A stretch of DNA of 64,000 nt from Paenibacillus azoreducens (GTDB taxonomy: Bacteria > Bacillota > Bacilli > Paenibacillales > Paenibacillaceae), in NCBI RefSeq assembly GCF_021654775.1, contig NZ_AP025343.1, positions 1,426,001 to 1,490,000 of the forward strand. Reading direction: 5' to 3'. Shown in pieces: positions 4,049-19,017 of the stretch. Made by a program: the position numbers and the translations under genes. Numbering within the stretch: the stretch's first letter is position 1; each line of letters opens with the position of its first letter. The notes under the pieces were generated by a model, which saw only the letters and a program-made list of their open reading frames with translations, did no database searches and was not told the origin of the DNA.

Positions 4049-4486
4049 ATGGATTTTAACGAATATATGGCATTTGTCAGAAAATGCAAGGAAGAACCTG
4101 TAAAAGAACTCAACGAATCAGACTTCGACGATATAGAGAAAACGGTGGGTGCAGAATTGCCCGTCGATTTTAAATCCTTTTATCTAAAAAGCAATGGAGA
4201 AGTTGAAAGCGAATATTATAGTTTCTCTCCCATTAAATATGGATTTTCAATAGAGAAACATATATATGTTTATGCTGAGCAAGGCATTTCTTTTGGGAAA
4301 AAGCTACCTTTTGCAACAGATATCCATGGACACACATATTTATTGTCTTTAGAAAATGATAGTTATGGACAAGTGCTTTTCCTACAACATGAATATGAAG
4401 ATGAACAAGATTATGATTTTGTCGCAAACAGCTTTACAGATTTTCTTAATGAATTTGTATCCAAAGAGAAAACATTTTTAATATGA
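4049..4486 (+). CDS. SMI1/KNR4 (SUKH) family protein
   Basis: 145 residues starting at MDFNEYM. This ATG has GAGGTG seven bases upstream; the longer frame from 3986 lacks a site. The order of features fits SUKH proteins: an acidic helix (ESDFDDIEKTVGAELP), the turn LPVDFKSFYLKSNG, then strands ending in SFTDFLNEF. SUKH proteins are commonly immunity proteins of contact-dependent or secreted polymorphic toxins. No toxin is adjacent. The codons are visibly more AT-rich than those of the neighbouring genes, suggesting transfer. It is a single gene with its own terminator. Confidence 0.8.
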   Translation: MDFNEYMAFVRKCKEEPVKELNESDFDDIEKTVGAELPVDFKSFYLKSNGEVESEYYSFSPIKYGFSIEKHIYVYAEQGISFGKKLPFATDIHGHTYLLSLENDSYGQVLFLQHEYEDEQDYDFVANSFTDFLNEFVSKEKTFLI

Positions 4487-4501
4487 ACTAAAGTCTTATA
4501 T

Positions 4502-4546
4502 AAAAAGCGTTTACCGAAAGCCGCTGCTTCCGGCGAACGCTTTTTA
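4502..4546 (+). terminator. Terminator after the SUKH gene
   Basis: AAAAAGCGTT and AACGCTTTTT pair at the base of a hairpin that also holds a GCCGC-rich inner part. Confidence 0.8.
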
Positions 4547-4564
4547 TGTTTGGCTTAGCATTGA

Positions 4565-4904
4565 TTAAATTTTGTTGATAGGGCGAAAGAATCGATCGCT
4601 GCGGCCGCGTCGCAAAAACTGATTGGCGGATACGATGACGGCACATTCCGTCCGGACGAACATTACGCGCGCAGAGATGACCGCCATGATTGTCCGAGCG
4701 CTGCACCTGCCACTGGATGAATCAGCAACCCCTGCTTTTACGGATAAACAGGACATTCCCGTTTGGGCGAAAGGTCCGGCGGCCGCAGCCGTAGAACAAG
4801 GCATCATCAAGGGGCTGAACGGTCAGTTTGCTCTCGCCCGTCTCGCGACGAGAGCCGAGGCTGCGGCGATGCTGATCCGGATGCGGCAGTCGGAAGGATT
4901 ATAA
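4565..4904 (+). pseudogene. Frameshifted remnant of an SLH-domain protein
   Basis: One frame opens after a TGA at 4562 and reads AKESIAAA...GGYDDGTFRPDEH, the first half of an S-layer homology domain. The expected continuation ITRAEMTAMIVRAL appears in a different frame from about 4659. This is followed by part of a second SLH unit (FTDKQDIPVWAK ... ATRAEAAAMLIRM) and a stop at 4902. The joint fits loss of two bases (cat-att to catt). No start codon or signal peptide precedes it, so this is the 3' tail of a decayed surface-protein gene. Confidence 0.85.
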
Positions 4905-4918
4905 TCGGTTTAGAAATC

Positions 4919-4965
4919 AAAGATCAGGGAATTCCGCGTGCGGATGGCATCCCTGGTCTTTTTTT
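4919..4965 (+). terminator. Terminator after the SLH remnant
   Basis: AGATCAGGGA and TCCCTGGTCT pair with one wobble, followed by a run of seven T. It survives from the decayed surface-protein gene. Confidence 0.85.
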
Positions 4966-5026
4966 GTTGTGCGATGACCGAATAGGACCCCCGATCCGAT
5001 GCTTGATTTTACAATTCCCCATTCCC

Positions 5027-5074
5027 GGCTTGTCTCTTAAGATCGCGAAGATCCGGTAAAGACAGGCTTTTTTT
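5027..5074 (+). terminator. Second hairpin with T tract
   Basis: GCTTGTCT and AGACAGGC pair with one wobble around an inner GATC/GATC match, followed by eight T. It would insulate the phn promoter from upstream reading. Confidence 0.55.
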
Positions 5075-5128
5075 TACGTGAGCCATTCCGTAGAGAACCC
5101 GGGAGCGATTTGACAAAGACGTCCTTTT

Positions 5129-5156
5129 TTTACAGATACTTTACAGTGATTTGACC
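5129..5156 (+). promoter_or_regulatory. Candidate PhoP box (three repeats)
   Basis: TTTACA at 5129, TTTACA at 5140 and TTGACC at 5151 lie exactly 11 bp apart, one helical turn each. The Bacillus PhoP consensus is direct TTWACA-like repeats with about 5-bp spacers. The box is about 90 bp before the first gene of the phosphonate operon, whose products release phosphate, so phosphate-starvation control fits well. Confidence 0.72.
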
Positions 5157-5161
5157 CTTGC

Positions 5162-5177
5162 AACTTGGCACCAAGTT
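5162..5177. promoter_or_regulatory. 16-bp palindrome, candidate PhnF operator
   Basis: AACTTGG-CA-CCAAGTT is a perfect inverted repeat six bases after the PhoP box, where it would overlap the promoter. The operon encodes a GntR/HutC-type regulator (6787-7506), whose relatives bind short palindromes. Assignment to that protein is inference. Confidence 0.55.
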
Positions 5178-5247
5178 AGACTGAAGCTACGAATTGCGGA
5201 TCGGGCTAAAACGTTTGTCTGCGCAGCGATTCCGATTCGTTGAATCC

Positions 5248-6117
5248 ATGGACAAGGTGGTGCTCAAGATCAAAACGGAACTGCATTGCCATACGAACAT
5301 TTCGGACGGCTCTTATTCTTTTGAGCAATTGGCCGAAGCGGCCCTGAAAGAGGACATCCGGGTGCTGGCGGTAACGAACCATGACACGACCCAAGGCCTC
5401 GCCCTAATGGCGGAACAGGGCGGCAGCCTCGGGCTCGAAATTATTCCGGCCATCGAAATTTCCGCTTGCGACCGGGAAAGAAAGACCAAGGTTCATATTT
5501 TGGGTTACTTTATCGAGCCCGGTCACCCTGCTCTTGAACGGTTATGCGCGCCTATGATCGCCAAACGCCACGAAACCTCGCGGCTGATGGTTGAACGTTT
5601 GGCCGAAGCGGGGTACCGCATTACTTGGGATCAGGTCCAGCGGTATGCGCTGGGCGGAACCGGAGTGTATAAGCAGCACATCATGCATGCCTTGATTGAT
5701 GAAGGCTACGCCGTTTCCATTTACGGGGAGTTGTACAAGAAATTGTTTGCCAAGGGCCAAAACGGGGAGGCGGGGATCGCCCATATCCCGCTGGAATACT
5801 TGCACGCCAGGGATGCCATCGATGCGATCCTTCAAGCGGGAGGGGTTCCGGTTCTGGCTCATCCGGGCCAATACGGCAATTTTGACTATATCCGCGATCT
5901 GGTAGGCATGGGGCTTCAAGGGATTGAGGTTTGGCACCCGCTTCATGATCAAGAAGACGAAGAGCGGGCAAAGGAGTATGCGAGGCGGTACGACCTCGTC
6001 ATGACCGGAGGCTCCGATTTTCACGGCTTTTACGGGGAAAAGGAAGTCCTGCTGGGCAGCAAGGACCCGGGCCTCGCCTGTGTCGACGAGCTCAGAAAAC
6101 GGAAAATCCACGCGTAG
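5248..6117 (+). CDS. PHP-domain phosphodiesterase of the phosphonate operon (PhnPP-like)
   Basis: 289 residues from ATG 5248; an in-frame TTG at 5194 is a weaker choice, and neither has a clear ribosome binding site. PHP metal-binding motifs are in order: ELHCHTNISDG, TNHDTT, IPAIEIS, a mid His segment, LAHPGQ and GGSDFHG. A PHP enzyme of this kind is known from Gram-positive bacteria to hydrolyse the cyclic ribose phosphate left by C-P lyase to ribose 5-phosphate, making PhnP and PhnN unnecessary. The operon has no phnN, which agrees. It is the first gene after the PhoP box. Confidence 0.85.
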   Translation: MDKVVLKIKTELHCHTNISDGSYSFEQLAEAALKEDIRVLAVTNHDTTQGLALMAEQGGSLGLEIIPAIEISACDRERKTKVHILGYFIEPGHPALERLCAPMIAKRHETSRLMVERLAEAGYRITWDQVQRYALGGTGVYKQHIMHALIDEGYAVSIYGELYKKLFAKGQNGEAGIAHIPLEYLHARDAIDAILQAGGVPVLAHPGQYGNFDYIRDLVGMGLQGIEVWHPLHDQEDEERAKEYARRYDLVMTGGSDFHGFYGEKEVLLGSKDPGLACVDELRKRKIHA

Positions 6118-6132: not shown

Positions 6133-6784
6133 ATGGAACAGCATCAGGTGCACCGTCCTACAGAATCTAAACGGCTCACGGTCGAACCGGATATTCATCC
6201 GAGCGCGCATGTTCTTCACAGCACGTTCGGATCCTGGACCTCCATCGGTCCGGGCAACCAGATCATTGAATCCCATATCGGGGATTACACCTACACAATG
6301 GATGACGTTACCGTCAACTATGCCGAAATCGGCAAATACACCTCTATAGCTTCGCATGTCTGCATCAATCCGGTGGACCATCCGATGGAGCGGGTAACGC
6401 AGCATCATATGACCTATCGGCGCAGGGATTACGGTTTTGCCGCCACCGACGATGAGGTTATTTTTAACCGGCGCAGGGGCAACCGCGTAACCATCGGCCA
6501 TGACGTCTGGATTGGCCATGGCGCGATCATCATGAAGGGGGTCCATATCGGCATTGGAGCCGTGGTAGGGTCCGGCGCCATCGTGACCAAGGACGTCGAG
6601 CCGTATGCCATTGTCGTCGGCGTGCCGGCAAGACCGGTTCGAAAAAGGTTTCCCGATGAGGATCGCCCGGCTCATGGAGATAGCCTGGTGGGATTGGCCC
6701 CGGGAAGTCATGGAGGAACGGTTCGAAGAGCTGAATGATACGGAGGCTTTTATTCGGAAGTACGGAGTTGATATCCGGAGCTAA
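6133..6784 (+). pseudogene. Phosphonate-locus hexapeptide acyltransferase, frameshifted near its C-terminus
   Basis: AGAGGAG lies 10 bp before ATG 6133. The first ~175 residues are a left-handed beta-helix acyltransferase of the type found in phn operons, with hexapeptide turns such as VWIGHGAI and [12 protein letters not shown], and [14 protein letters not shown]. After GATGAG (about 6658) the frame changes to an unrelated tail ending at 6738. The adjacent frame gives [19 protein letters not shown] and then [20 protein letters not shown], stopping at 6784, which is the normal tail of this family. One extra G explains it. The enzyme may keep its catalytic core, or this may be a sequencing error. 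Confidence 0.85.
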
Positions 6785-6786
6785 AA

Positions 6787-7506
6787 GTGAAGGGAACGAG
6801 CGAAATGCGCGAGGAAATGGAGATCATGGATAAGCTGATATTCGATATGGAGGCAGGAGTTTATGAGCCCGATGACAAGCTGCCCTCCGAGAACGATTTG
6901 GCCCGACTGTTCAAGGTCCCACGAATGACCGCCCGCAAAGCCTACGAAAAGCTCCAGGACCTTGGTTACGTATATTCGAAGCAGGGGAAAGGCAGCTTTG
7001 TCCGGGATCAGCACCAGCGCATCCCGCTCCTTTTTTCCGGCAATGAAAGCTTTAGCTCCAAAATGCTTCAAATGGGGTACGATTACCAGTCCCGCAATCT
7101 GTTTTGCGATCCCATCGAATATAATCATAAAATTTATGAAACGCTCGGCGCGGACCCCGGAGAGAGAGTCTTCAAAATCGGCAGGCTGCGCCTCATCGGT
7201 AACCGGCCGATCGCGATTCATATCTCTTACGTGCCGGAATCCATGTTTGCGGACATCGGGCAGACCGGAAGGGATATTACCTCGATGTTCGAGTATTACC
7301 GAAGGAAGGGGTACATCGATTTCGGATCGATGAAGACGCTCCTCAGCGTCAAGTATCCCGGCAAAGCGGAGAGGGAACTGCTCGCCTGCACCGGCCTCAT
7401 TCCGCTGCTCGTGGTGGAAACGGGTTGCCTGGATAACCGGACGGGAAGGGCGCTTGAATATACGCGGATACTGTATAGGAGTGACTATTTTACGTATGAG
7501 CTCTAA
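6787..7506 (+). CDS. phnF: GntR/HutC-family regulator of phosphonate genes
   Basis: 239 residues from GTG 6787 with GGAG seven bases upstream. The N-terminal winged helix (about 10-75) contains LPSENDLARLFKVPRMTARKAYEKL and the wing GYVYSKQGKGSFV. A UTRA effector domain follows (about 90-235). Its place between the operon leader genes and phnG matches PhnF. It probably represses the operon until a phosphonate-related ligand binds; the palindrome at 5162-5177 is a candidate operator. Confidence 0.85.
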   Translation: MKGTSEMREEMEIMDKLIFDMEAGVYEPDDKLPSENDLARLFKVPRMTARKAYEKLQDLGYVYSKQGKGSFVRDQHQRIPLLFSGNESFSSKMLQMGYDYQSRNLFCDPIEYNHKIYETLGADPGERVFKIGRLRLIGNRPIAIHISYVPESMFADIGQTGRDITSMFEYYRRKGYIDFGSMKTLLSVKYPGKAERELLACTGLIPLLVVETGCLDNRTGRALEYTRILYRSDYFTYEL

Positions 7507-7524: not shown

Positions 7525-7965
7525 ATGAAGCGAAGACGAAGAACCGAGATCCTGATTGAAGGATCCCGGGAGATAGCCTCGGCCATGGCGCAGGAAATTT
7601 CAGACCGGTACGAGGTGAGGCTAATCGAGGAACCGAATCAAGGGCTTGTCATGGCCAAGGTTAGGGAAACTGCTGAGCAAAGCCTGTTTTACATTGGCGA
7701 AGTGCTGGTAAGCGAGTGCAAGGTACAGGTGGAAGGATGCATGGGGCTCGGTATCGTCAAGGGACTTCATAATGATCTGGCTTATCAGCTGGCCGTTATC
7801 GACGCCGCTTATCAAGCCGGGCTGCGGGAGACCTTGGCCTGGGAGCCGCTTCTCGGCTCCGAAGAGGCGAAGCTCAGGGCACGGCGGGAGAAGGCGTTCG
7901 GCCAAATCGCCAAAACGAAGGTGGATTTCGAGACGATGGATACGGTTAAAGGAGGAGAGCGATGA
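7525..7965 (+). CDS. phnG: C-P lyase complex subunit PhnG
   Basis: 146 residues, normal for PhnG. It carries the PhnG segments around LIEEPNQGLVMAKVRETAE and GEVLVSECKVQVEG. In Escherichia coli PhnG joins PhnH, PhnI and PhnJ in the core complex that attaches phosphonate to the ribose of ATP. GGGAGG precedes the ATG, and the stop overlaps phnH by 4 bp, implying translational coupling. Confidence 0.93.
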   Translation: MKRRRRTEILIEGSREIASAMAQEISDRYEVRLIEEPNQGLVMAKVRETAEQSLFYIGEVLVSECKVQVEGCMGLGIVKGLHNDLAYQLAVIDAAYQAGLRETLAWEPLLGSEEAKLRARREKAFGQIAKTKVDFETMDTVKGGER

Positions 7966-8573
7966 GCTTTCATGCGATTCACGATATTCAGCGCGCTTAC
8001 CGCAAGGTAGTGGATTCCATGGCCCGACCTGGCCGGGTGTCGGATTTATCCGAGGAAGCTTCCAGGGCGGATGCCGGTTTCGGGAGTTATCCCTCCACTT
8101 GGGTACTGGCCGTCATGATGCTCGATACGGAAGTTACCTTCAAAATATACTCCCGCCGCGAAAACGAGCTTTCCCGGCTTTTTAACCAGCTGACCTTCGC
8201 AAGCCGGGCCGAGACGGAGAAGGCGGACTATATCTTTGTTCTGCACGATGCGGAAGAAGGCGCCGCGGAGGCGGCTTTGCGCAAAGCCAAAACAGGAAGC
8301 CTCGCCGATCCGCATGATTCGGCTTCCATCATTATCGAATCCGGCGACTTGTCGGACGGGTCCGAATGGAGGCTCACCGGCCCGGGAATCCGTGAGGAAA
8401 GTTTGGTCCGGCTGCCGCTGGAAGGCGGCTTGCTTCTGGCAAGGGCGGAGAGAAATGCGGAGTATCCGATGGGCCTGGATATGATCGTCGTTGACCGGAA
8501 GCATCGGCTGATATGCCTGCCCCGGACGACGCAAATTTCCCGGCGGGAGGTGCAGCTAGCATGGGATATGTAG
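7962..8573 (+). CDS. phnH: C-P lyase complex subunit PhnH
   Basis: 203 residues. The N-terminus FHAIHDIQRAYRKVVDSMAR with PGR is a clear PhnH hallmark, and the protein ends with the PRTT segment usual in the family. PhnH is a structural PLP-transferase-like subunit without PLP. ATGA overlap with phnG and a 13-bp overlap with phnI place it firmly in the operon. Confidence 0.93.
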   Translation: MSFHAIHDIQRAYRKVVDSMARPGRVSDLSEEASRADAGFGSYPSTWVLAVMMLDTEVTFKIYSRRENELSRLFNQLTFASRAETEKADYIFVLHDAEEGAAEAALRKAKTGSLADPHDSASIIIESGDLSDGSEWRLTGPGIREESLVRLPLEGGLLLARAERNAEYPMGLDMIVVDRKHRLICLPRTTQISRREVQLAWDM

Positions 8574-9715
8574 CGGTAAAAGGCGGAACGCTCGCGATTG
8601 AAGAATCGCTGAAGCGGATTAAATATGAACGGCTTAAAGGGGGCACCGTTCTCGATGTTCGCCGGATCGAAGGGGGCATGCGGGCTTTGGTCGATCAGGT
8701 GATGTCGGAGAGCAGTCTATACAGCGAGACGCTGGCGGCGCTGGCGCTCAAACAAGCGGAAGGGAGTCCGGAGGAGGCGGTGTTTTTATTGAGAGCTTAC
8801 CGGTCGACCCTGCCCAGGAAGCATTATTCCAGAGTGGCAAAGACAAGCGAAATGAGGGTTGAACGGCGGATTTCCGCCAGCTTCAAGGATATTCCGGGAG
8901 GGCAAATTCTCGGGGCCACCGTGGATTACAGCCATCGCCTGCTTGATTTTGACCTGATGGATGAGACGGACGAAGAAGCGGCGGAGTGGGTGCGCGGGTT
9001 CCAGGAAGAATTAAAGGATCAGCCGCCTGCAGCAGGGGAAGCCGAACTCATGAAAGTCGTGGATTATTTGATCCGGCAAGGGCTCATGGTACGCCGTGAG
9101 GATGACGATACCGAACCGGATGATGTCACGCGCAGAAGCGTAACGTTCCCGGCCAGCCGGAGTCAGAAACTGCAGATCCTGACGCGGGGACAGACTGGAG
9201 CGGTAACGTCCTTGGCCTATGCCGTTATCCGCGGGTACGGAGTTTCCCATCCGACCGTAGGCGAGCTGCGGGTTGGGCATATGCCGGTATCCATCGACGA
9301 CCCGCTGGGGATGGAAGGAGACGAGGACGACAGCTATTACATCGGCGAAATCAAGGTCACCGAGGCAGAAATGCTTATGTCGGCTTCCGCGTCGAAGGAA
9401 CAGGGCCGAAAAGAGCTCGCTTTTGAAATCGGCTACGGCTTGTGTTACGGCCAGAATGAGACCAAGGCGATTGCGATGGGCATTCTGGACCACAGCCTGG
9501 AACAGGGAGACGGCAGCCTCCCGACCCAGAATCATGAATTCGTGCTGTTTCATATCGATTCCGTGGAATCCACCGGATTCATGTCGCATCTGAAACTCCC
9601 GCATTACGTCACTTTCCAGTCCAAGATGAACGACGTGCGGAAAACGAAGGGAACAGTGAAGCCGGAAGAAACTGCGGCCGAGAAGACCGGGGAGGTGCAG
9701 GAAGCATGCACATAA
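8561..9715 (+). CDS. phnI: C-P lyase subunit PhnI
   Basis: 384 residues from ATG 8561 (MGYVAVKGG), with GGGAGG 10 bases before it. The family segments GYVAVKGGTLAIEES and SESSLYSETLAALALKQAEGS are present. With PhnG, PhnH and PhnL it makes the ribose-1-phosphonate triphosphate intermediate; PhnI is the nucleosidase-like catalytic part. It overlaps phnJ by 10 bp. Confidence 0.95.
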   Translation: MGYVAVKGGTLAIEESLKRIKYERLKGGTVLDVRRIEGGMRALVDQVMSESSLYSETLAALALKQAEGSPEEAVFLLRAYRSTLPRKHYSRVAKTSEMRVERRISASFKDIPGGQILGATVDYSHRLLDFDLMDETDEEAAEWVRGFQEELKDQPPAAGEAELMKVVDYLIRQGLMVRREDDDTEPDDVTRRSVTFPASRSQKLQILTRGQTGAVTSLAYAVIRGYGVSHPTVGELRVGHMPVSIDDPLGMEGDEDDSYYIGEIKVTEAEMLMSASASKEQGRKELAFEIGYGLCYGQNETKAIAMGILDHSLEQGDGSLPTQNHEFVLFHIDSVESTGFMSHLKLPHYVTFQSKMNDVRKTKGTVKPEETAAEKTGEVQEACT

Positions 9716-10569
9716 ACTACAATTTCGCGTTTTTCGATGAGGGCTCCAAGCGGGAAATCCGCAGAGCGACCCTGAAGGCGATCGCCATTCCGGGATATCA
9801 GGTTCCGTTTGCCTCCAGGGAAATGCCGATCGGGCGGGGCTGGGGAACGGGAGGTCTTCAGCTGACGCTCTCTTTGGTTGGCCGCGAAGACGTCGTGAAG
9901 GTGATCGATCAGGGGTCCGACGAATCGGTGAATGCCGTCAGCATCAAGAAGCTGGTTCAGTATACGACGGGGATCGAAACGACGGACGAAACCGCGGAAG
10001 CGACCTTGATTCAGTCCAGACACCGCGTTCCCGAGGCCCCGCTTCGGGAAGGTCAAATCCTTGTGCTGCAGGTGCCTACTCCTGAGCCGCTCAGGATGTA
10101 TGAACCGAGCGAGGCGGAGACCAAAAAGCTGCATGCGGAAAAAGAATACAGCGGCGCTTGGCTTATGCTGTTCGAGCAAATCATGAACTACGGCAGCATG
10201 ACGACCGGCGCAGACCACCCGGTGCTGGTTCACGACCGGTATGTTATGGCGCCAAGCCCGATTCCTAAATTCGATAATCCCAAGTTGGATGCGTCCGAAG
10301 CGCTTATTCTTCTCGGAGCCGGACGGGAAAAGAAAATTTATGCGGTGCCCCCGTATACCCAAATCGTATCGCTCGATTTTGAAGACCACCCGTTTGAACC
10401 GGAATCCTTCCAGGGCCGATCATGCAGGCTGTGCGGAGCTACCGGCGTGTTTTTGGACGAATTGTACGATGACATTGGCGGCATCGCTTATTTCCAATGC
10501 AACGACACAAGCTACTGTTTGGACCGGATGAACCGGCAAACCCGGGATGAGGGGGTAGGGAGCCGATGA
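9706..10569 (+). CDS. phnJ: C-P lyase catalytic subunit PhnJ (radical SAM-type)
   Basis: 287 residues. The family's four cysteines are kept as C-x2-C-x21-C-x5-C (CRLC ... QCNDTSYC), the spacing of the E. coli cluster ligands and the catalytic Cys. The glycine-rich stretch MPIGRGWGTGGLQ that supplies the glycyl radical is also present. The enzyme breaks the C-P bond of ribose-1-phosphonate 5-phosphate, yielding the 1,2-cyclic phosphate and the alkane. It overlaps phnK by 4 bp. Confidence 0.96.
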   Translation: MHINYNFAFFDEGSKREIRRATLKAIAIPGYQVPFASREMPIGRGWGTGGLQLTLSLVGREDVVKVIDQGSDESVNAVSIKKLVQYTTGIETTDETAEATLIQSRHRVPEAPLREGQILVLQVPTPEPLRMYEPSEAETKKLHAEKEYSGAWLMLFEQIMNYGSMTTGADHPVLVHDRYVMAPSPIPKFDNPKLDASEALILLGAGREKKIYAVPPYTQIVSLDFEDHPFEPESFQGRSCRLCGATGVFLDELYDDIGGIAYFQCNDTSYCLDRMNRQTRDEGVGSR

Positions 10570-11411
10570 CGCAAACGGAACAACCGATCATTTCCATTCG
10601 ACATTTAAACAAGCAGTTTGGGGAAGGCTGCGCGCACTGCGCAAGCCCCGGCAGCCGCCGGCTTCACCGGAATTTTTGCACGGTATGCGGAACGGTGTAT
10701 TCCTGCCAGGACGTCTCCTTTGATCTGTATCCGGGCGAGATTATCGGCGTGGTCGGAGAAAGCGGCAGCGGAAAGTCGACGATGATGCGGTGCCTGTATT
10801 TCGACCAAGAGGCCACCAGCGGCGAAGCTTATCTAAAGGAATACAAAGGTGGAAGCCAAAACCTGTTTACGGAATCTCCGCAGCAGAAGCGGTACATCCG
10901 CAACCACCTCATGGGAAAGGTGTATCAGAACCCGATGCTGGGCTTGCGAATGGGGTTCTCCTCTATCGGCAACATCGCGGAAAAGATGATCGCGGCGGGC
11001 ATCCGCCACGTGGGAGAGATGGAAGCCCGCGGCAAGGAACTGCTGGGCAAGGTCCACATCCCGCTCCACCGGATCAAGGAAGCCCCGAAGCATTTTTCCG
11101 GCGGCATGCAGCAGCGGGTGCAGATTGCCAAGGCATTATCCAATAATCCGCCTGTGCTGCTGCTCGATGAAGTCACGACCGGACTTGACCTGTCCGTTCA
11201 GGCAAGCGTGCTGGATTTGATCAAGTACCTGCAGCGGGAGCTTGGCATCAGCATCATTCTCGTGTCGCATGATCTCGGGGTGATCCGCATGCTCGCCGAC
11301 CGGACGCTAGTGATGCTTGACGGCAGGGTGGTTGAGGAAGGTTTGACCGACCAGATCCTAGAGGATCCGCAGGAAGCGTATACGCAGCAGCTCGTGCATT
11401 CTTTGCTGTAG
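10566..11411 (+). CDS. phnK: Phosphonate C-P lyase ABC-type ATPase PhnK, with Cys-rich insertion
   Basis: 281 residues. Walker A is GESGSGKST, the signature SGGMQQR, Walker B VLLLDE, and the switch His is in LVSHDLG. Compared with the E. coli protein there is an extra segment near residues 20-42 with C-x2-C-x12-C-x2-C (CAHC ... CTVC), placed before the first strand DVSFDLYPG. This looks like a zinc knuckle and occurs in many non-enterobacterial PhnK proteins. PhnK docks on PhnJ in the core complex rather than on a permease. Confidence 0.94.
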   Translation: MTQTEQPIISIRHLNKQFGEGCAHCASPGSRRLHRNFCTVCGTVYSCQDVSFDLYPGEIIGVVGESGSGKSTMMRCLYFDQEATSGEAYLKEYKGGSQNLFTESPQQKRYIRNHLMGKVYQNPMLGLRMGFSSIGNIAEKMIAAGIRHVGEMEARGKELLGKVHIPLHRIKEAPKHFSGGMQQRVQIAKALSNNPPVLLLDEVTTGLDLSVQASVLDLIKYLQRELGISIILVSHDLGVIRMLADRTLVMLDGRVVEEGLTDQILEDPQEAYTQQLVHSLL

Positions 11412-11434: not shown

Positions 11435-12682
11435 GTGTATCTCATTACGAACGGGCTCATCGTTACCGAAGAAACGATCCTGGATGGATACGACATTTTG
11501 ATTCAAGGCGATAAGATCGCGCGGATTTCCCCGCGCGGCGAAATCAAGGCGGATGGACGGACCGAGGTGATCGATGCGGGAGGAGGATACCTTGCGCCCG
11601 GGTTTATCGATATTCACTCCGATTACATTGAGCATATGGCCGCCCCGAGGCCGACATCTTTAATGGATTTCCGGCTTAGTCTCAGGGAGACGGAGAAGGA
11701 GCTGATCACCCACGGCATTACGACGATGTTTCATTCCTTATCCATCTACAAGTCGACGGAGTACAAATACCGCCCGATCCGCGAACCGGAAAATGTCCGC
11801 AGGCTGCTGGAGCTGATCGAGTCTTCGCATACGAGCAAGCATCTGGTGCGCCACCGCTTCCACGCCAGGTTTGAGATCGACAATGTGGTTGAGGTTGACA
11901 ATCTCAAAAGCTATATCGCGGCTAACAAAGTGCATCTGGTCTCGTTTATGGACCATACGCCGGGTCAGGGACAATATCGTGATCTGGAGGTATACCGGGC
12001 AACGTTAAGAGGTTACGACGATGTGACCGATGAGGGCATAGACGAGCTGATTCGGAAGCATATGAGCAAGGAGAAATTGACCGCCCAGGGCATCCGGGAA
12101 ATCGCCGGGATGGCGCTGGAAGCCGGAATTGCCGTCGCCTCGCATGACGACGATTCCCTTGAGAAGCTGGATCTGGTTAAGGGTTTCGGGGCAACCATCA
12201 GCGAGTTTCCGATCACCCTTGAGATCGCCCGGCGGGCAAAAGAACAGGGGATGTACACCGTGGCCGGCGCGCCTAACGTCATCCTTGGCGGTTCGCATAG
12301 CGGAAATCTGTCTGCCGCCGAGGCGATTCGGGAGAAATGCATCGATATCTTATGCAGCGATTATTATCCGGCTTCGCTCCTGCACGCCGTATTTTACCTT
12401 GCAGAACGCTGCGGACAGGACTTGGCGGACATGTTCCGGCTGGTGACGCTTCATCCAGCGCGGGCCGTCAAGATGGATCACGAAATCGGCTCGATCCGGG
12501 TAGGGAAAAAGGCCGACCTGATCCTGATCGCAATGATCGAGGAGGATTTTCCGGTGATCACGGCGGTGTTCGTCGATGGAAAGCTGATTCAGAGAACCAA
12601 CTACAGGGATCATGAAAGGGGGAACGACGTTGAAGAGCCTGCTGACGATCGAACATTTGTCGAAGACGTTCACTTTGCATAA
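11435..12682 (+). CDS. phnM: Alpha-D-ribose 1-methylphosphonate 5-triphosphate diphosphatase PhnM
   Basis: 415 residues from GTG 11435 with AAGGAGG upstream. It is an amidohydrolase-superfamily enzyme with metal motifs GFIDIHSDYIE, HRFHARFE, ASHDDD and ILCSDYYP. It removes pyrophosphate from the ribose-phosphonate triphosphate. The last ~18 codons extend past the usual family end and overlap phnL by 53 bp in another frame, an unusually long overlap. The gene order K-M-L differs from K-L-M in enterobacteria. Confidence 0.94.
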   Translation: MYLITNGLIVTEETILDGYDILIQGDKIARISPRGEIKADGRTEVIDAGGGYLAPGFIDIHSDYIEHMAAPRPTSLMDFRLSLRETEKELITHGITTMFHSLSIYKSTEYKYRPIREPENVRRLLELIESSHTSKHLVRHRFHARFEIDNVVEVDNLKSYIAANKVHLVSFMDHTPGQGQYRDLEVYRATLRGYDDVTDEGIDELIRKHMSKEKLTAQGIREIAGMALEAGIAVASHDDDSLEKLDLVKGFGATISEFPITLEIARRAKEQGMYTVAGAPNVILGGSHSGNLSAAEAIREKCIDILCSDYYPASLLHAVFYLAERCGQDLADMFRLVTLHPARAVKMDHEIGSIRVGKKADLILIAMIEEDFPVITAVFVDGKLIQRTNYRDHERGNDVEEPADDRTFVEDVHFA

Positions 12683-13337
12683 TTTGAATCAGCAGATCGA
12701 CGCCGCTCAGGATGTAAGCCTGCATTTGGACGAGGGCGAATTTATCGGCATTACGGGTAAAAGCGGCAGCGGAAAGTCCACGGTTCTCCGCTGCATCTAC
12801 CGGACCTATCTTCCGCAGGGGGGAACCATCCTGTACCAATCCGCAAAATACGGGGAAGTCGATCTAGCCCTGGCCCCGGATCGTACGATCATCGATTTGC
12901 GCAAGCATGAGATCGGCTACGTTTCCCAATTTTTGAACGTCATGCCGCGGACGACGGCGAGGGAACTGGTGAATCAGGCCCTGCTTGAAATGGGCAAGAA
13001 CCCGCTGACCGCCTCACAGGAGACTGAGGGCATGCTGGATCATTTTGAGCTGGACCCCGCCCTCAGGGACAGTTATCCCGCAACATTCTCCGGCGGGGAA
13101 AAACTGCGCCTCAACATCGCGAGAGCGATGGTTAAACGCCCGAGGCTCCTGCTCCTGGATGAGCCGACCGCCAGCCTGGACCAATCTTCCAAGTTGAAGG
13201 TGAAGGCGCTGATCGAGCAGCTGATGCGGGAAGGAACCACTATGCTTGGCATCTTTCATGACCTGGAATTTATGGAGGGCCTGTGCAGCCGCAGATACCA
13301 TATGCAGGACGGGCGCTTTCATGAAACCGCAGGCTAA
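12630..13337 (+). CDS. phnL: C-P lyase ABC-type subunit PhnL
   Basis: 235 residues from TTG 12630, chosen because AAAGGGGG lies seven bases before it; ATG 12612 has no good site. Walker A is GKSGSGKST, signature FSGGEKLR, and Walker B LLLLDEPTASLD. PhnL works with PhnG-H-I in forming the ribose-phosphonate intermediate. Its start lies inside phnM. It is the last gene of the first phn block; a 172-bp gap with a hairpin follows. Confidence 0.92.
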   Translation: MKSLLTIEHLSKTFTLHNLNQQIDAAQDVSLHLDEGEFIGITGKSGSGKSTVLRCIYRTYLPQGGTILYQSAKYGEVDLALAPDRTIIDLRKHEIGYVSQFLNVMPRTTARELVNQALLEMGKNPLTASQETEGMLDHFELDPALRDSYPATFSGGEKLRLNIARAMVKRPRLLLLDEPTASLDQSSKLKVKALIEQLMREGTTMLGIFHDLEFMEGLCSRRYHMQDGRFHETAG

Positions 13338-13509: not shown

Positions 13510-14568
13510 ATGAAAAAAACCATTTCTCTTCTCTTGGTTCTGATCCTGGCCGCAGCGGTTGCCGGCTGTTCTTCCGGAGCTTCCTCGCTGGGCCTGAACG
13601 TCAATGGTTCAAAAGGCAAGGATACTCTCACGATCGTCTGGTACCCGAATGAATCGGCCGCCGATTTGAAGGATGCGCGGGACGAGATCGGGAGGATCGT
13701 CGAGAAGGCCACAGGCAAAAAAGTCGAGCATAAAATGACGACGGATTATAACATTGCGATCGAAGCCATAGCAAACGGAAGCGCGGATTTGGCTTACATG
13801 GGTCCGCAGGGTTACGTGGAAGCCCGGAACAAAACGGAGGACGTGAAGCCGTTGTTTACGAACAGCGGAGAGTCGGGAACGCTGGATGACGCCGTGTACT
13901 ACTCTTGGATCAATGTGAGAAAAGGGGACGAGGCCGGGTATAAAAACGGCGATAGTTTTGCCATCGACTCCCTAGCTGGTAAAAAGTTCTCCTTTGTTTC
14001 CAACAGCTCGACTTCGGGCTTTAAAGTTCCGGCTGCCGGCATTATCGGTTATTTCGGGAAAATGGATAAATATAAAAACCTGTCGCAGGATGATTTGATG
14101 CAGGGCGGCAAAGACAAGTTTTTCAGCGATGTCTTGTTCGGCGGTTCCCATCAGGGCTCCGCGGTCAACCTTCTGACAGGCAAAGCGGATGCGGCTGCTT
14201 TTTGCGATACGTGCGTGTCGAATTACGTGGAGCTGGCGGACGGAACCGCCAATAAACCCGGAGCGGTCTACAAGGTGAAGGAAGGTGCGGCAGAGCCCTT
14301 CAACACATTGGCAGGCAAAGAGTTTGTCGTCATTTCCGTCACGCCGGTGTTGAATTCCCCGTTTGTCGCCAATACGAAAACCGTGAGCGAAGAGGACCAG
14401 AAGAAGCTGGTGGATGCGTTCACTGCGGATGATGTTACCCATAACCCGAAAATTTTCCTGCCCAAAGATTCCAAAGCAACCGGTCTGTTCAAGCAAAAAA
14501 GCGGGAACGAGAGATTTTTGCCGGTAGAGGATGCCTGGTTCAATCCGATCCGGGAGCTGTCCAAATAA
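13510..14568 (+). CDS. phnD: Phosphonate ABC transporter substrate-binding lipoprotein
   Basis: 352 residues with a lipoprotein signal peptide ending AAAVAGC, lipid-anchored at Cys20. The PhnD fold segments ADLAYMGPQGYVEA, SNSSTSGFKVPA and FGGSHQGSAVNLLTGKADAA are recognisable. It captures phosphonates outside the membrane. AAGGAG precedes ATG. A TTAACA-N5-CTGACC pair at 13437-13453 is a weak PhoP-box-like candidate for a second promoter. Confidence 0.93.
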   Translation: MKKTISLLLVLILAAAVAGCSSGASSLGLNVNGSKGKDTLTIVWYPNESAADLKDARDEIGRIVEKATGKKVEHKMTTDYNIAIEAIANGSADLAYMGPQGYVEARNKTEDVKPLFTNSGESGTLDDAVYYSWINVRKGDEAGYKNGDSFAIDSLAGKKFSFVSNSSTSGFKVPAAGIIGYFGKMDKYKNLSQDDLMQGGKDKFFSDVLFGGSHQGSAVNLLTGKADAAAFCDTCVSNYVELADGTANKPGAVYKVKEGAAEPFNTLAGKEFVVISVTPVLNSPFVANTKTVSEEDQKKLVDAFTADDVTHNPKIFLPKDSKATGLFKQKSGNERFLPVEDAWFNPIRELSK

Positions 14569-14612: not shown

Positions 14613-15401
14613 ATGACAACGTTATTGGAATTCAAGCATGTATCCAAGCAGTACGGCCACGAAACCCAAGCGTTAACGGACGTCAGCTTTTCGGTGGAAA
14701 AAGGGGAGTTCGTATCGATTATCGGCCCGTCGGGGGCCGGAAAGTCGACCCTGCTCCGGTGCATCAACCGGATGATCGACGCGAGCAGCGGCGAAATTTG
14801 TTTTGAAGGGAACAATGTGCTGGCATTCCGGAAAAGCGAGCTGAAAAAGCTGCGGAGAAGCATCGGCATGATTTTTCAGCATTACAATCTCGTCGAGCGT
14901 CTCAGCGTCATCGAGAACGTTCTTCATGGACGGCTCGGCTATAAGTCTACGCTTGCCGGAATGCTGGGCATCTACCGCGAAGAAGAGAAACGCCAGGCGT
15001 ATGAAATGCTCGGCATCCTTGGTTTGGAGGAGCAGGTTCACAAGCGCTGCGACCAGCTCAGCGGCGGCCAGAAGCAGCGGGTCGGCATCGCGAGGGCTCT
15101 GGTTCAGGGGCCGAAAATGCTGCTGTGCGACGAGCCGATCGCTTCCCTGGACCCGAATGCGTCGCGCGTCATTATGGATCATCTAAGGAGCATTTCCGTC
15201 AACCTGGGCATTACCGTCGTGATCAATCTCCATCAGGTGGAGACGGCGTTAAAGTATTCGGATCGGATCATCGGGGTCAACAAGGGAAAAGTGGTATATA
15301 ACGGATCTCCGGACCAGGTTACCGCCGGCGAGCTTCAGCGCATCTACGGAAACGAGAGGAGAGAGGCCGGTGCGGAACAGGGCGAGACGCAAGCAGGGTG
15401 A
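14613..15401 (+). CDS. phnC: Phosphonate ABC transporter ATPase
   Basis: 262 residues. Walker A is GPSGAGKST, the Q loop IFQHYNLVERLSVIENVLHGRLG is typical of PhnC, signature LSGGQKQR, and Walker B MLLCDEP. It powers the PhnDCE importer. The last codons overlap the first permease gene by 32 bp. Confidence 0.95.
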   Translation: MTTLLEFKHVSKQYGHETQALTDVSFSVEKGEFVSIIGPSGAGKSTLLRCINRMIDASSGEICFEGNNVLAFRKSELKKLRRSIGMIFQHYNLVERLSVIENVLHGRLGYKSTLAGMLGIYREEEKRQAYEMLGILGLEEQVHKRCDQLSGGQKQRVGIARALVQGPKMLLCDEPIASLDPNASRVIMDHLRSISVNLGITVVINLHQVETALKYSDRIIGVNKGKVVYNGSPDQVTAGELQRIYGNERREAGAEQGETQAG

Positions 15402-16179
15402 CTTCTTTGCAGTCAAAAGAAGGCATGCTTACCGTTTGTGGGGACTGCTTCTGTTACTGACTTATGGCGCGATGGTGTTGACGCAGTATGACGTCGTCCA
15501 AGGCCTGCGCTCGATACCGAAAGCGGCGGAATGGGGGATCACCCAGTTCTATCCGAACCGGGAGTCGTTCTCCAAGCTCCCCGACATTCTGCGTACCTTA
15601 CAGGAGACCCTGCTGATGTCCATTGCGGCATCGTCCGTCGCCGCCGTGTTCGCGCTGTTTTTCGCCATCATGGGATCACAGGCGGTGGGAATCAACGCGG
15701 GGCTGAAGCTGGTCAGCCGGACGATTGCGACCATATTTCGGAATATCGATATTACAGTGTGGTCGATGATTCTGCTGTTTTCGTTCGGACAAAATGTCAT
15801 GACGGGCTATTTTGCTCTTTTCTTCGGCTCCTTCGGGTTCCTGACCCGGGCTTTTCTGGAGTCGATCGACGAGTCCAGCGGCCACTCCGTGGAGGCGCTG
15901 CGCGCGACCGGGGCCGGGTACGCCACGATCATATGCCAGTCCGTCATCCCATCCGTGCTGCCCCAGCTGATCAGCTGGATTCTGTTCATGATCGAGACCA
16001 ATATTCGGAACGCCACCCTGATCGGAATACTGACCGGCACCGGAGTCGGCTTTTTGTTCAACCTGTACTATAAAAATCTGAATTACAGCGCCGCCAGTCT
16101 GATCGTGCTGATCATCGTGGCGTCCATCCTGATCATTGAATTTGCTTCAAACTATATTCGAAAGGTGGTCATAGGATGA
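15370..16179 (+). CDS. phnE: Phosphonate ABC transporter permease, first PhnE
   Basis: 269 residues from GTG 15370, with GAGGAGAG upstream inside phnC. Six or so hydrophobic segments are visible, and the cytoplasmic EAA loop reads VEALRATGAGYATIICQSVIPSVLP. The pair of PhnE-type permeases likely forms a heterodimer in the membrane. It overlaps the second permease gene by ATGA. Confidence 0.92.
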   Translation: MRNRARRKQGDFFAVKRRHAYRLWGLLLLLTYGAMVLTQYDVVQGLRSIPKAAEWGITQFYPNRESFSKLPDILRTLQETLLMSIAASSVAAVFALFFAIMGSQAVGINAGLKLVSRTIATIFRNIDITVWSMILLFSFGQNVMTGYFALFFGSFGFLTRAFLESIDESSGHSVEALRATGAGYATIICQSVIPSVLPQLISWILFMIETNIRNATLIGILTGTGVGFLFNLYYKNLNYSAASLIVLIIVASILIIEFASNYIRKVVIG

Positions 16180-17054
16180 GGATGAGCGCCGGTGCCGCCG
16201 ACAAAAACGCAACCGCAGAGCTGCTTCGTCCCTGGGAACGTACCGGCATGAGCGTTCCCCCGAAGAAGCCGTTTAATAAGGCCGTTTTTACGATCCGGCT
16301 GACGCTGCTGGCGTTGGGCCTATTAACCGTGTTTGCCTTCTTGACCTTCGATTATAAAGGGGTACAGGTATTTCAAGGAGTCTACGCGACTTTGCTAAAC
16401 TTGAAGACGATGTTCCTGCAGCCGAGGTTGCATCATTTCACGCTTATGGATGCGCTTTTTGAGGTTCTGATTACGTTGGGGCTGGCTTTTCTTGCGACGT
16501 TGTTCGGCGCGGTGATCGCCCTCTTTCTCAGCTTGTTTTCCGCCCGCAATTTATCTTCCCCGGTCGCTGTGGCCGTCATCAAGGGCGGGGTCGCGTTCGT
16601 CCGGGCCGTTCCTACGGTGATGTGGGTCCTCATTTTTGCCGTGGCGGCAGGTTTGGGAAGCGTGGCCGCGGTGATCGGCATGACCTTCCACTCCATCGGT
16701 TATTTGATTAAAGCGTATTCCGAAGCCTTCGAGGAAATAGACAAAGGCACGATCGAGGCGCTCAAGTCCAGCGGGGCGAACTGGTGGCAGATCGTATTTC
16801 AAGCAGTTATTCCTTCCTCCATGTCTTATTTGATGTCGTGGACGCTGCTTCGCTTTGAGATCAATTTCTCCGTAGCGGTCGCCATGGGGGCGGCGGCAGG
16901 GGCCGGCGGGATCGGTTACGACATGTTTATGGCCAGCAGCTTTTATTTTGACCTGAAGGAAATCGGAGCCATCACCTATTTTATTTTGGGATTTGCGATT
17001 TTGCTGGAGGTGGCGGCGGGCCGGGCCAAACGCAGGCTTAAAGCCGGGAAATAG
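16176..17054 (+). CDS. phnE: Phosphonate ABC transporter permease, second PhnE
   Basis: 292 residues. It has an N-terminal charged tail, membrane segments, and the EAA loop IEALKSSGANWWQIVFQAVIPSSMSY. It is longer at the N-terminus than the first PhnE. It is the last phn gene; 50 bp later an insertion sequence begins, so any original terminator has been moved to the other side of the element or lost. Confidence 0.92.
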   Translation: MRMSAGAADKNATAELLRPWERTGMSVPPKKPFNKAVFTIRLTLLALGLLTVFAFLTFDYKGVQVFQGVYATLLNLKTMFLQPRLHHFTLMDALFEVLITLGLAFLATLFGAVIALFLSLFSARNLSSPVAVAVIKGGVAFVRAVPTVMWVLIFAVAAGLGSVAAVIGMTFHSIGYLIKAYSEAFEEIDKGTIEALKSSGANWWQIVFQAVIPSSMSYLMSWTLLRFEINFSVAVAMGAAAGAGGIGYDMFMASSFYFDLKEIGAITYFILGFAILLEVAAGRAKRRLKAGK

Positions 17055-18922
17055 GACCGCGGGATGCCCAAGCTGTTATCATAAGGACTGATCCCTGCGA
17101 AAATGGGGCTGTCCAATAAGTCCCCAAAATAAAAAGTTGGACGGGAAAACGTCATGTTTTCCGTCCAACTTTTTTTGTTCTGTCGCTTTTGCAGGAAAGT
17201 GGCTGAGCGGATGCCCGCCACCTTCAGTAGATTGTGGGCCAAAGCCACAATCCCAAATTCGGTGTGAACCTTCTCCATCCCTCGCAAGGAGAAGCGACGG
17301 AACGAGCGATTGCCCTTGATGTGACCGAATACGCTTTCTACCTCGACTTTACGCCGAGCATAGATCGCAGATCTCTCGTCATCCTCAAGGGCTTTCTTGG
17401 CCTTTGCTTTTAACTCTTCCCAGATTGTATTCCAGTGTACCTGGCGGTTCCCCTTGGCCTTGGTGCAGCTTGCCTTGAGTGGACAATCACTGCAATCTTC
17501 ACATTCATAAATCTTAAAGCTTTGCTCCAGGCCAGACGCGTTTTTCTTCATTTGGTATTTCTTAAAGCGAACGTACTGGCCATTCGGGCAAATAAATCGG
17601 TCATCTTGCTCTTCATACGTCCAATTGGAGGCATGTCGGATGTCCTTCTTGTAGCGACGCGCTTTCTCTTTCATATAACTGCCGTAAGGAATGAGAAAAT
17701 CAAAACGAGGCTCTTTTTCTTCGCCCACCGCATACAAGTAATTTTCCTCGCTGCCATAGCCTGCATCGGCAATCACCGTTTTCGGCATCGGCAAAGCAGA
17801 CGCAGCCAATCGCTCCATATGGGGGATGAAGCAACGTGTATCTGTAGGTCGCTGATGAAGGCTGTAAAACAAAATGAACTGGTTTTCTGTCGCTATTTGC
17901 ACATTGTAACCCGGTTTCAGTTGACCATTCTTCATGTGGTCTTCCTTCATCCGCATAAACGTGGCATCTGGATCAGTTTTGGAGTAGCTGTTGCGATTGC
18001 CAAAGCAGGCTTTCTGCTGCTCATACTTGGCGAGCCGCGGAAGAAAGTCCTCCCAAATTTGTTTCAGTGGCTGCTTCAGGGCACTGCGCTCTTTGCGTAA
18101 GGCTTTTCTCGCTCCGCTGTCGTTTGCCTGAGCCATTTGTTCGGTGAAATCCTCCACTTTTTCTTCCAGTAGGGCGGCTGCTTCTTCGAGTCTTACAGGA
18201 AGTTCATCCGGGGCTGCCGCCGCGTATTCGTCGGCTTCTTGCTGTGTGAGCGTATGAATATGCGCAAGGGTCGCCTGTACCTTTTCCTTGAGCTTCTCTT
18301 CAAAGTGAAGGGTGGATTTTTTCCACACAAAAGAATACTTGTTAGCATCAGCTTCGATCTTCGTGCCGTCTAAAAAGTAGTTCTCCATCGTGATGTAATT
18401 GTCTGCGATGAGCTTTTGGATCATTGTTTCAAACAGCTCGTCCATAAATGCTTTCATACGCACGCCACGGAAGTCGTTCAAGGTACGGAAGTCGGGCTGT
18501 TGCATCGCCGCCAGCCACATCGCCGGGAGGTTCTCTTGCAGCAGCTTTTCAATGCCTCGGCAAGAGTAAACCTTTTGCGAGTAACCGTAAAGGATCACCT
18601 TGAGCATCATTTTGGGATGGTAGGGACTGCGGCCTCCGCCTGTGTAGTGGGCAAACAGTTGCTGATCTGGAATGGATTCGATCATTTCATCAATGACATG
18701 TGCCACATGGTGGTCAGGAATGAATAGTTCCAAATTCAGAATCATCTGAGCTTGCTTGTTATCGTACGGCTTGAAGGTAGGGGCAAGATTTCGTTTAGGT
18801 ATCACTTTTTCTTCCACATCCTCTAGAGGAAGTGTCACTTGCATGGTATACTGTTCGGTAGTAGTCGTTAGATTACGCAAAAAAATCGCCCTTTCCTGAG
18901 TTGGTTGTGTGGTAACTTCCAT
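16976..18922 (-). CDS. IS1182-family transposase
   Basis: About 648 residues if it starts at ATG 18922; a TTG about 39 bp later behind AGGAAAGGG is another choice. The N-terminal DUF772-type segment includes LFAHYTGGGRSPYHPKMMLKVILYGY. The central DDE region has FLDGTKIEADANKYSF and TVIADAGYGSEENY; a Cys cluster (CEDCSDCPLKASC) precedes the terminal ARRKVEVESVFGHIKGNR with the catalytic Glu. The frame has no stop inside the element. It runs through the left inverted repeat and ends 125 bp outside, antisense to phnE, so the last ~43 residues come from flanking DNA. Confidence 0.9.
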   Translation of the reverse strand: MEVTTQPTQERAIFLRNLTTTTEQYTMQVTLPLEDVEEKVIPKRNLAPTFKPYDNKQAQMILNLELFIPDHHVAHVIDEMIESIPDQQLFAHYTGGGRSPYHPKMMLKVILYGYSQKVYSCRGIEKLLQENLPAMWLAAMQQPDFRTLNDFRGVRMKAFMDELFETMIQKLIADNYITMENYFLDGTKIEADANKYSFVWKKSTLHFEEKLKEKVQATLAHIHTLTQQEADEYAAAAPDELPVRLEEAAALLEEKVEDFTEQMAQANDSGARKALRKERSALKQPLKQIWEDFLPRLAKYEQQKACFGNRNSYSKTDPDATFMRMKEDHMKNGQLKPGYNVQIATENQFILFYSLHQRPTDTRCFIPHMERLAASALPMPKTVIADAGYGSEENYLYAVGEEKEPRFDFLIPYGSYMKEKARRYKKDIRHASNWTYEEQDDRFICPNGQYVRFKKYQMKKNASGLEQSFKIYECEDCSDCPLKASCTKAKGNRQVHWNTIWEELKAKAKKALEDDERSAIYARRKVEVESVFGHIKGNRSFRRFSLRGMEKVHTEFGIVALAHNLLKVAGIRSATFLQKRQNKKSWTENMTFSRPTFYFGDLLDSPIFAGISPYDNSLGIPRSYFPALSLRLARPAATSSKIANPKIK

Positions 18923-19017
18923 TCTACAAGAATTGGCGTTTTTTTTGTTCCTTTTTTTAACATCCAACAAAAACGGGGCGTCCAGCATCAGCTTTTACTG
19001 ACTTTCTGGACAGCCCC
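17105..19017 (-). mobile_element. IS1182-type insertion sequence, ~1.9 kb
   Basis: The ends are inverted repeats: GGGGCTGTCCAATAAGTC at the left and, read inward on the minus strand, GGGGCTGTCCAGAAAGTC at the right, 16 of 18 matching. The flanking A/T bases extend the match. A convincing target duplication is not visible. The element carries one transposase gene on the minus strand and sits between phnE and the P450 gene. Confidence 0.88.

Follow-up and report, generated by a model that had tools for sequence, protein, structure and literature searches.

In the usual description, phosphate starvation turns on the C-P lyase by way of the Pho regulon (PMC10574752, in the sections consulted). 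The phn operon of Paenibacillus azoreducens raises the question of whether phosphate alone decides: it carries the gene of a GntR-type regulator, and at its head direct repeats stand next to a palindrome. The stretch analyzed here, 64,000 nucleotides long and called the window below, contains this operon, on the forward strand. Its first gene codes for a PHP-domain phosphoesterase (5248–6117); the best NCBIfam match, phosphoribosyl 1,2-cyclic phosphate 1,2-diphosphodiesterase, scores 238.9 bits, below the cut-off of 500. The start of this gene may instead be the ATC at 5269, after a ribosome-site-like stretch, AAGGTGGTG; in four close relatives (L017, L018, L019 and L074) a TGA stands in frame two codons ahead of the ATC, with no ATG, GTG or TTG in between. 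There follow a phn_thr-fam hexapeptide transferase (6133–6738; TIGR03308, over cut-off), the phnF-like regulator (6787–7506), phnG (7525–7965) and phnH (7962–8573), both over their NCBIfam cut-offs, phnI (8513–9715; assigned by position and recognition with no HMM, start uncertain), phnJ (9706–10569), the C-P lyase marker in the surveys, phnK (10566–11411), phnM (11435–12682; NCBIfam over cut-off), phnL (12612–13337), a phnD-like substrate-binding protein (13510–14568; TIGR01098 over cut-off, PhnD TIGR03431 below), and phnC with two phnE-like permease genes (14613–17054). The names phnJ, phnK, phnL, phnC and phnE were given by recognition. An MBL-fold protein (1437–2258) encoded some 3 kb before the operon has a weak likeness to PhnP (73.8 bits, cut-off 272.25); after the operon, on the minus strand, a transposase-like ORF, also named by recognition (16976–18988), overlaps the closing part of the last permease gene.

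The promoter region is compact. Three PhoP-type boxes on the forward strand, TTTACA (5129–5134), TTTACA (5140–5145) and TTGACC (5151–5156; TTRACC in many relatives), start 11 bp apart; the same positions were scored in relatives. The palindrome AACTTGGCACCAAGTT, the candidate operator, occupies 5162–5177, with arms of 7 around a CA center and a conserved core of ACTTG-N4-CAAG (5163–5175). A candidate −10 element, TAGACT (5177–5182), whose TAnnnT hallmark is kept in relatives, starts inside the right arm of the palindrome, so that its first base is shared. The sequence-only reading of this DNA had described the same repeats, the same palindrome and an operon with a GntR-type regulator of its own. 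Repeats and regulator stand as described; the palindrome is also where it was said to be, except that five bases (CTTGC), not six, separate it from box 3.

From the end of box 3 to the −10 candidate there are 20 bp, so no usable −35 lies at normal spacing, and a promoter scan of 4400–5400 found no sigma-70-type promoter; a TTGACA at 5110 was rejected as a −35 on the result of that scan. Pho-type sites are defined by 11-nt direct repeats (PMC4415409, in the part consulted); at this locus such repeats precede a −10 that lacks a usable −35, as in promoters of the Pho regulon. A −10 without a usable −35 fits an activator-dependent type of promoter. The 20-bp spacer also prompted the idea of a MerR-type spacer operator. 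MerR dyads are wider than the present palindrome, and no MerR gene was recognized among the ORFs inspected; this idea was dropped.

Could the arrangement be an accident of composition? With both strands counted, the window holds a single three-box TTNAC array of 11-bp pitch, and 20 first-order Markov simulations produced none. Palindromes with arms of at least 7 and a spacer of at most 4 are not unusual in the window (32, against 15–29 in five simulations); therefore, the palindrome alone proves nothing. In the 7.3-Mb genome the 16-mer has one exact site and no one-mismatch site. The PhoP-array pattern with up to two mismatches gives 12 matches genome-wide against 14 for the reversed control, that is, background level; the sole other exact match is a tandem repeat, TTAACACACCA (L082). 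A chance palindrome is thus something the window by itself does not exclude; conservation in relatives does, and it is this conservation of sequence, not the statistics of the window, that raises the site above chance. Among 394 genomes of the family the exact 16-mer has 18 sites in 17 genomes, and the reversed control none. Thirteen of the 18 lie at C-P lyase operons bearing the regulator, where two more operons (L022 and L047) are missed with one base changed; three (L072, L074 and L075) lie at degraded or orphan phn promoters, one being a truncated operon with the regulator, one a regulator remnant and one an orphan promoter; the remaining two, in coding sequence (L064, in a phnE-like frame, and L077), are taken as chance. 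In 40 relatives a search for ACTTG-N4-CAAGTTA gave 20 sites, while its reversed control gave 51; further targets, such as a wider regulon would have, are not indicated.

Within the family, operons were found through PhnJ. By this marker 28 of the 394 genomes have a C-P lyase operon, and 16 of these operons carry the same GntR regulator; one (L045) was left out because its contig ends before the promoter. In all 15 that could be assessed, boxes, palindrome core and TAnnnT precede the first gene and keep a fixed spacing, with a single left-arm base changed in L047 (GCTTG). Information content is 1.33 bits per column within the block, compared with 0.35 before it and 0.34 after it (16 rows: the 15 operons and L074). 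The other 12 family operons, without this regulator, have no site within three mismatches and no ACTTG-N4-CAAG; the 12 control phn loci also show no full TTNAC three-box array on the phn strand, and no palindrome core common to three or more of them. The contrast also holds among loci of similar PhnJ divergence: L053–L058 (PhnJ identity 64–71%) have another GntR protein, 22–28% identical, and lack the site; L211, L212, L215 and L217 (62–70%) have it, as does L216 with one arm mismatch.

Surveys of the order and the class extend the pattern. Searching by regulator in the order gave 31 of 392 genomes, 23 of them new, and ACTTG-N4-CAAG with a box score of 10–12 out of 12 is present in 23/23 new operons. 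All 38 family and order operons reach a score of at least 8 of 12, as do 0.27% of positions in the scored loci. Even with a regulator only 46% identical (L175) the site is there, reading ACTTGGCGACAAGTTA. The stretch around L156 showed no PHP gene, and there the module sits before the transferase gene; it goes, then, with the operon and not with the PHP gene. The class survey, again by regulator (E ≤1e-30), gave 22 of 398 genomes: the own genome, a remnant in G057 and 20 others. Of these 20 loci, 18 are linked to phn genes, including three without phnGHIJ in the stretch (L203, L204 and L210). ACTTG-N4-CAAG is present in 14 of the 18 (L198–L204, L206–L208, L211, L212, L215 and L217), where it precedes the PHP gene or phnG, except that L203 and L204 have it downstream of phnF; in the other four (L205, L209, L210 and L216) one arm base is changed. 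Two PhnF-like genes without phn neighbors (L213 and L214) have no site. L212 keeps the arms around a different center (ACTTGTTAACAAG); the site is accordingly defined by its arms more than by its center. The boxes are less uniform, box 1 being weak in L021 and L052 and box 3 degenerate in L211, L215 and L216. Two limits bear on these counts: the loci are not independent, as operons and regulators share descent; and because the regulator served as the query for order and class, only the PhnJ-found family set tests absence. The refuting condition that the sequence-only reading had named, a lack of conservation in related phn loci, does not hold: repeats, palindrome core and spacing were kept in 15/15 family and 23/23 order operons.

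Many loci carry a second unit of the same kind in the gap between phnF and phnG: TTTACA, TTAACA, an operator that is mostly [AG]CYTGGCAACAAGATA, and TAnnnT. It was found in 36 of the 59 loci scanned, with TAnnnT in all 36; at the front, 42 of 44 candidates have TAnnnT, the two exceptions (L207 and L217) being two-mismatch candidates regarded as spurious. Leaving those two out, 22 loci have both units. The own phnF–phnG gap is 18 bp long, and no second unit lies in it. The candidate scan required a box-like stretch and thereby dropped L166 and L211: scoring of boxes at fixed spacing finds the front unit in L166, and in L211 the site is present with two good boxes and a degenerate third. That scoring was fixed to the front spacing; the boxes of phnG units mostly lie one base further out, and these units (L203, L211, L215, L216 and others) therefore score low or not at all by it. 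Most of the more divergent class loci have the phnG unit only, though L175 and the remnant L210 have the front unit only; the front unit may be a later copy.

Some modules stand at degraded loci or apart from an operon. One genome (G081, at 2.175 Mb; L075/L177) has an orphan full promoter module, together with a ribosome-site-like stretch; the 12 kb around it showed no phn gene, and the phn operon of this genome lies elsewhere. Incomplete or degraded phn loci in G057 (L072/L178) and G072 (L074/L176), and likewise L210 and L204, retain the promoter module.

What protein, then, would sit on the palindrome? The product of 6787–7506 belongs to the GntR/HutC family, with GntR (PF00392, 55.4 bits) and UTRA (PF07702, 85.5 bits) domains both over cut-off. 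Its score against PhnF TIGR02325, 93.8 bits, is below the cut-off of 156.8; it is thus called phnF-like and not a member of the PhnF equivalog. The closest solved structures are those of NagR/YvoA. A residue survey, with positions set by the NagR alignment, covered 58 regulators (L053–L058, L213 and L214 left out): of the phosphate-anchor positions, R133, S88 and S166 are present in 58/58 and R135 in 57/58; H145 is likewise present in 58/58. In DasR and NagR, arginines and a serine are described as holding the phosphate (PMC4918961 and PMC4333415, in the parts consulted). The position of the glutamate that contacts the sugar in NagR and DasR is His145 in every one of the 58. The kept phosphate anchor, together with His for Glu, indicates the class of ligand: probably a phosphorylated or phosphonylated compound, judging by these residues, and not an amino sugar phosphate. 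L213 and L214, which lack the site, also have R133, R135 and H145; the pocket is therefore not specific to phn operons.

The operator itself is unusual for this family. HutC operators are given the consensus NyGTMTAKACNy, a GT-N4-AC palindrome (PMC4494728, in the part consulted), and ACTTGGCAYCAAGT contains no GT-N4-AC, a point on which the sequence-only reading made no remark. NagR is described as contacting guanines at −5 and −4 (PMC4333415, likewise); the nearest conserved G here is at −3, and the position of NagR Arg38 is Asn in 52 of the 58 proteins. Operator mismatch and Asn are counted as speaking, at the level of sequence, against the standard mode of binding and not against binding. 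One rival is that PhoP activates the promoter while the palindrome belongs to a regulator encoded elsewhere. In its favor, the operator departs from the HutC consensus and from the NagR contact geometry, and the link to PhnF is one of co-occurrence, with order and class loci found through the phnF-like gene in the first place. In the PhnJ-found family set, however, where the regulator was not the bait, the site tracks the GntR gene (15/15 against 0/12), and operons that carry a different GntR protein (L053–L058) do without it; a binder from elsewhere is unlikely. That the GntR protein binds as an activator, or as a helper of PhoP, would suit a site that adjoins the boxes and stands where a fourth 11-bp unit would be, but the same site overlaps the −10 and fills space that polymerase needs, and the HutC proteins in the published accounts examined are repressors; this seems very improbable. 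Least credible, and close to negligible, is a role for the palindrome as a hairpin of the leader RNA. A short stem from ACTTG-N4-CAAGT is conceivable, yet the arms of the front unit are nearly invariant and do not change in pairs. The palindrome would, moreover, lie upstream of the start site, as the −10 hallmark comes right after it.

PhoB-model matches in the own genome number 119, partial ones included, with none over cut-off, and OmpR-type regulators run to dozens. The best match was rejected as PhoP because its locus is ResD/ResE-like, and the second best because its locus is neither a pho nor an mdh locus. A sensor kinase and a response regulator do lie between icd-mdh and pstB, phoU and polA, with other genes in between (all named by recognition except mdh); by synteny with the gene order of B. 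subtilis we take this pair to be phoPR. Might the 11-bp repeats belong to another OmpR-type response regulator? The abundance of such regulators allows it, and so does the fact that the two pstS genes of the own genome (L110 and L121) have no significant three-box array. Against this, TTTACA-type three-box arrays with 11-bp pitch precede 11 of 30 pstS-family genes of relatives (30 loci out of 49 matches; an array counts as significant when fewer than 5% of mononucleotide shuffles equal it), for example TTTACACAGAGTTTACAAAACGTTAGTA in L093, and in the own genome a one-mismatch PhoP-type array (3536435; L083) precedes a gene for a binding protein whose best NCBIfam match, below cut-off, is that of a 2-aminoethylphosphonate transporter component. 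Assignment of the repeats to a regulator other than PhoP is thus decidedly doubtful. The L083 gene could possibly be a further Pho-controlled phosphonate uptake gene.

The reading we favor, and hold to be likely, is a promoter with two inputs, activated by PhoP and closed at the operator by the HutC-type GntR protein that the operon itself encodes. When phosphate runs short, PhoP~P would occupy the three 11-bp repeats and recruit RNA polymerase to a −10 that has no usable −35, with transcription starting near 5189. A dimer of the GntR protein would sit between box 3 and the −10, on the palindrome, and block polymerase, until a phosphorylated or phosphonylated ligand released it. Full expression would then need low phosphate and the ligand together; since phnF is one of the operon's genes, the repression would be autoregulated. 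Comparison supports two-input control well; the binding events are predictions. The sequence-only reading had proposed phosphate limitation through PhoP and a phosphonate signal through the PhnF-like protein. The pairing of a Pho response regulator with the GntR protein of the operon survives as the best reading (15/15 and 23/23 against 0/12); the second signal is narrowed only to phosphorylated or phosphonylated ligands.

That reading had also set this control against E. coli, with PhoB alone as the known regulator; such a contrast is too strong. In Mycobacterium smegmatis, phnDCE is described as upregulated via SenX3-RegX3 and repressed by PhnF (PMC7866108 and PMC5309233, in the parts consulted), so that this phn operon has, as proposed here, a Pho-type response regulator as activator and a GntR/HutC protein as repressor. 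For E. coli, a review calls PhnF a repressor of PhnCDE, and it mentions possible dual regulation of the C-P lyase in general (PMC10574752, in the sections consulted). The E. coli operon, phnCDEFGHIJKLMNOP, resembles the present one in coding for a C-P lyase, with a Pho box at the head and phnF inside (PMC7866108; PMC10574752); it differs in that control is given as Pho box and PhoB, and no operator of the present type appears in the accounts examined. The M. smegmatis system, by contrast with the C-P lyase, in-operon regulator and ACTTG-N4-CAAG of these Bacilli, lacks a C-P lyase and has a phosphate transporter, with phnF divergent from it. PhnF operators in M. smegmatis, TGGTATAGACCA, are of HutC type. 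NagR/YvoA of B. subtilis and DasR of Streptomyces coelicolor belong to the same family by sequence, with the phosphate-anchor Arg-x-Arg kept; the NagR site, GTGGTCTAGACCAC, is of the GT-N4-AC type (PMC4333415, in the part consulted), unlike the present operator.

No description of the present Bacilli promoter was found in the open literature, RegPrecise lying outside that search. New, as far as the literature searched goes, are the C-P lyase setting in Bacilli, the operator outside the HutC consensus, and the second module before phnG (22 loci). Taken together, we lean, if only somewhat, toward a portable AND-gate module of the Bacilli: PhoP repeats with a compact, non-canonical HutC operator, ACTTG-N4-CAAG, where a fourth PhoP unit would stand, and a −10 abutting it, copied to the front and to phnG in many operons, and placing the Gram-positive C-P lyase under both substrate and phosphate control. 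If this is true, phosphonate breakdown in Bacilli would need an inducer besides low phosphate; a protein of the HutC family would have a site outside the published consensus; and the ligand of a PhnF-type regulator would be open to direct test.
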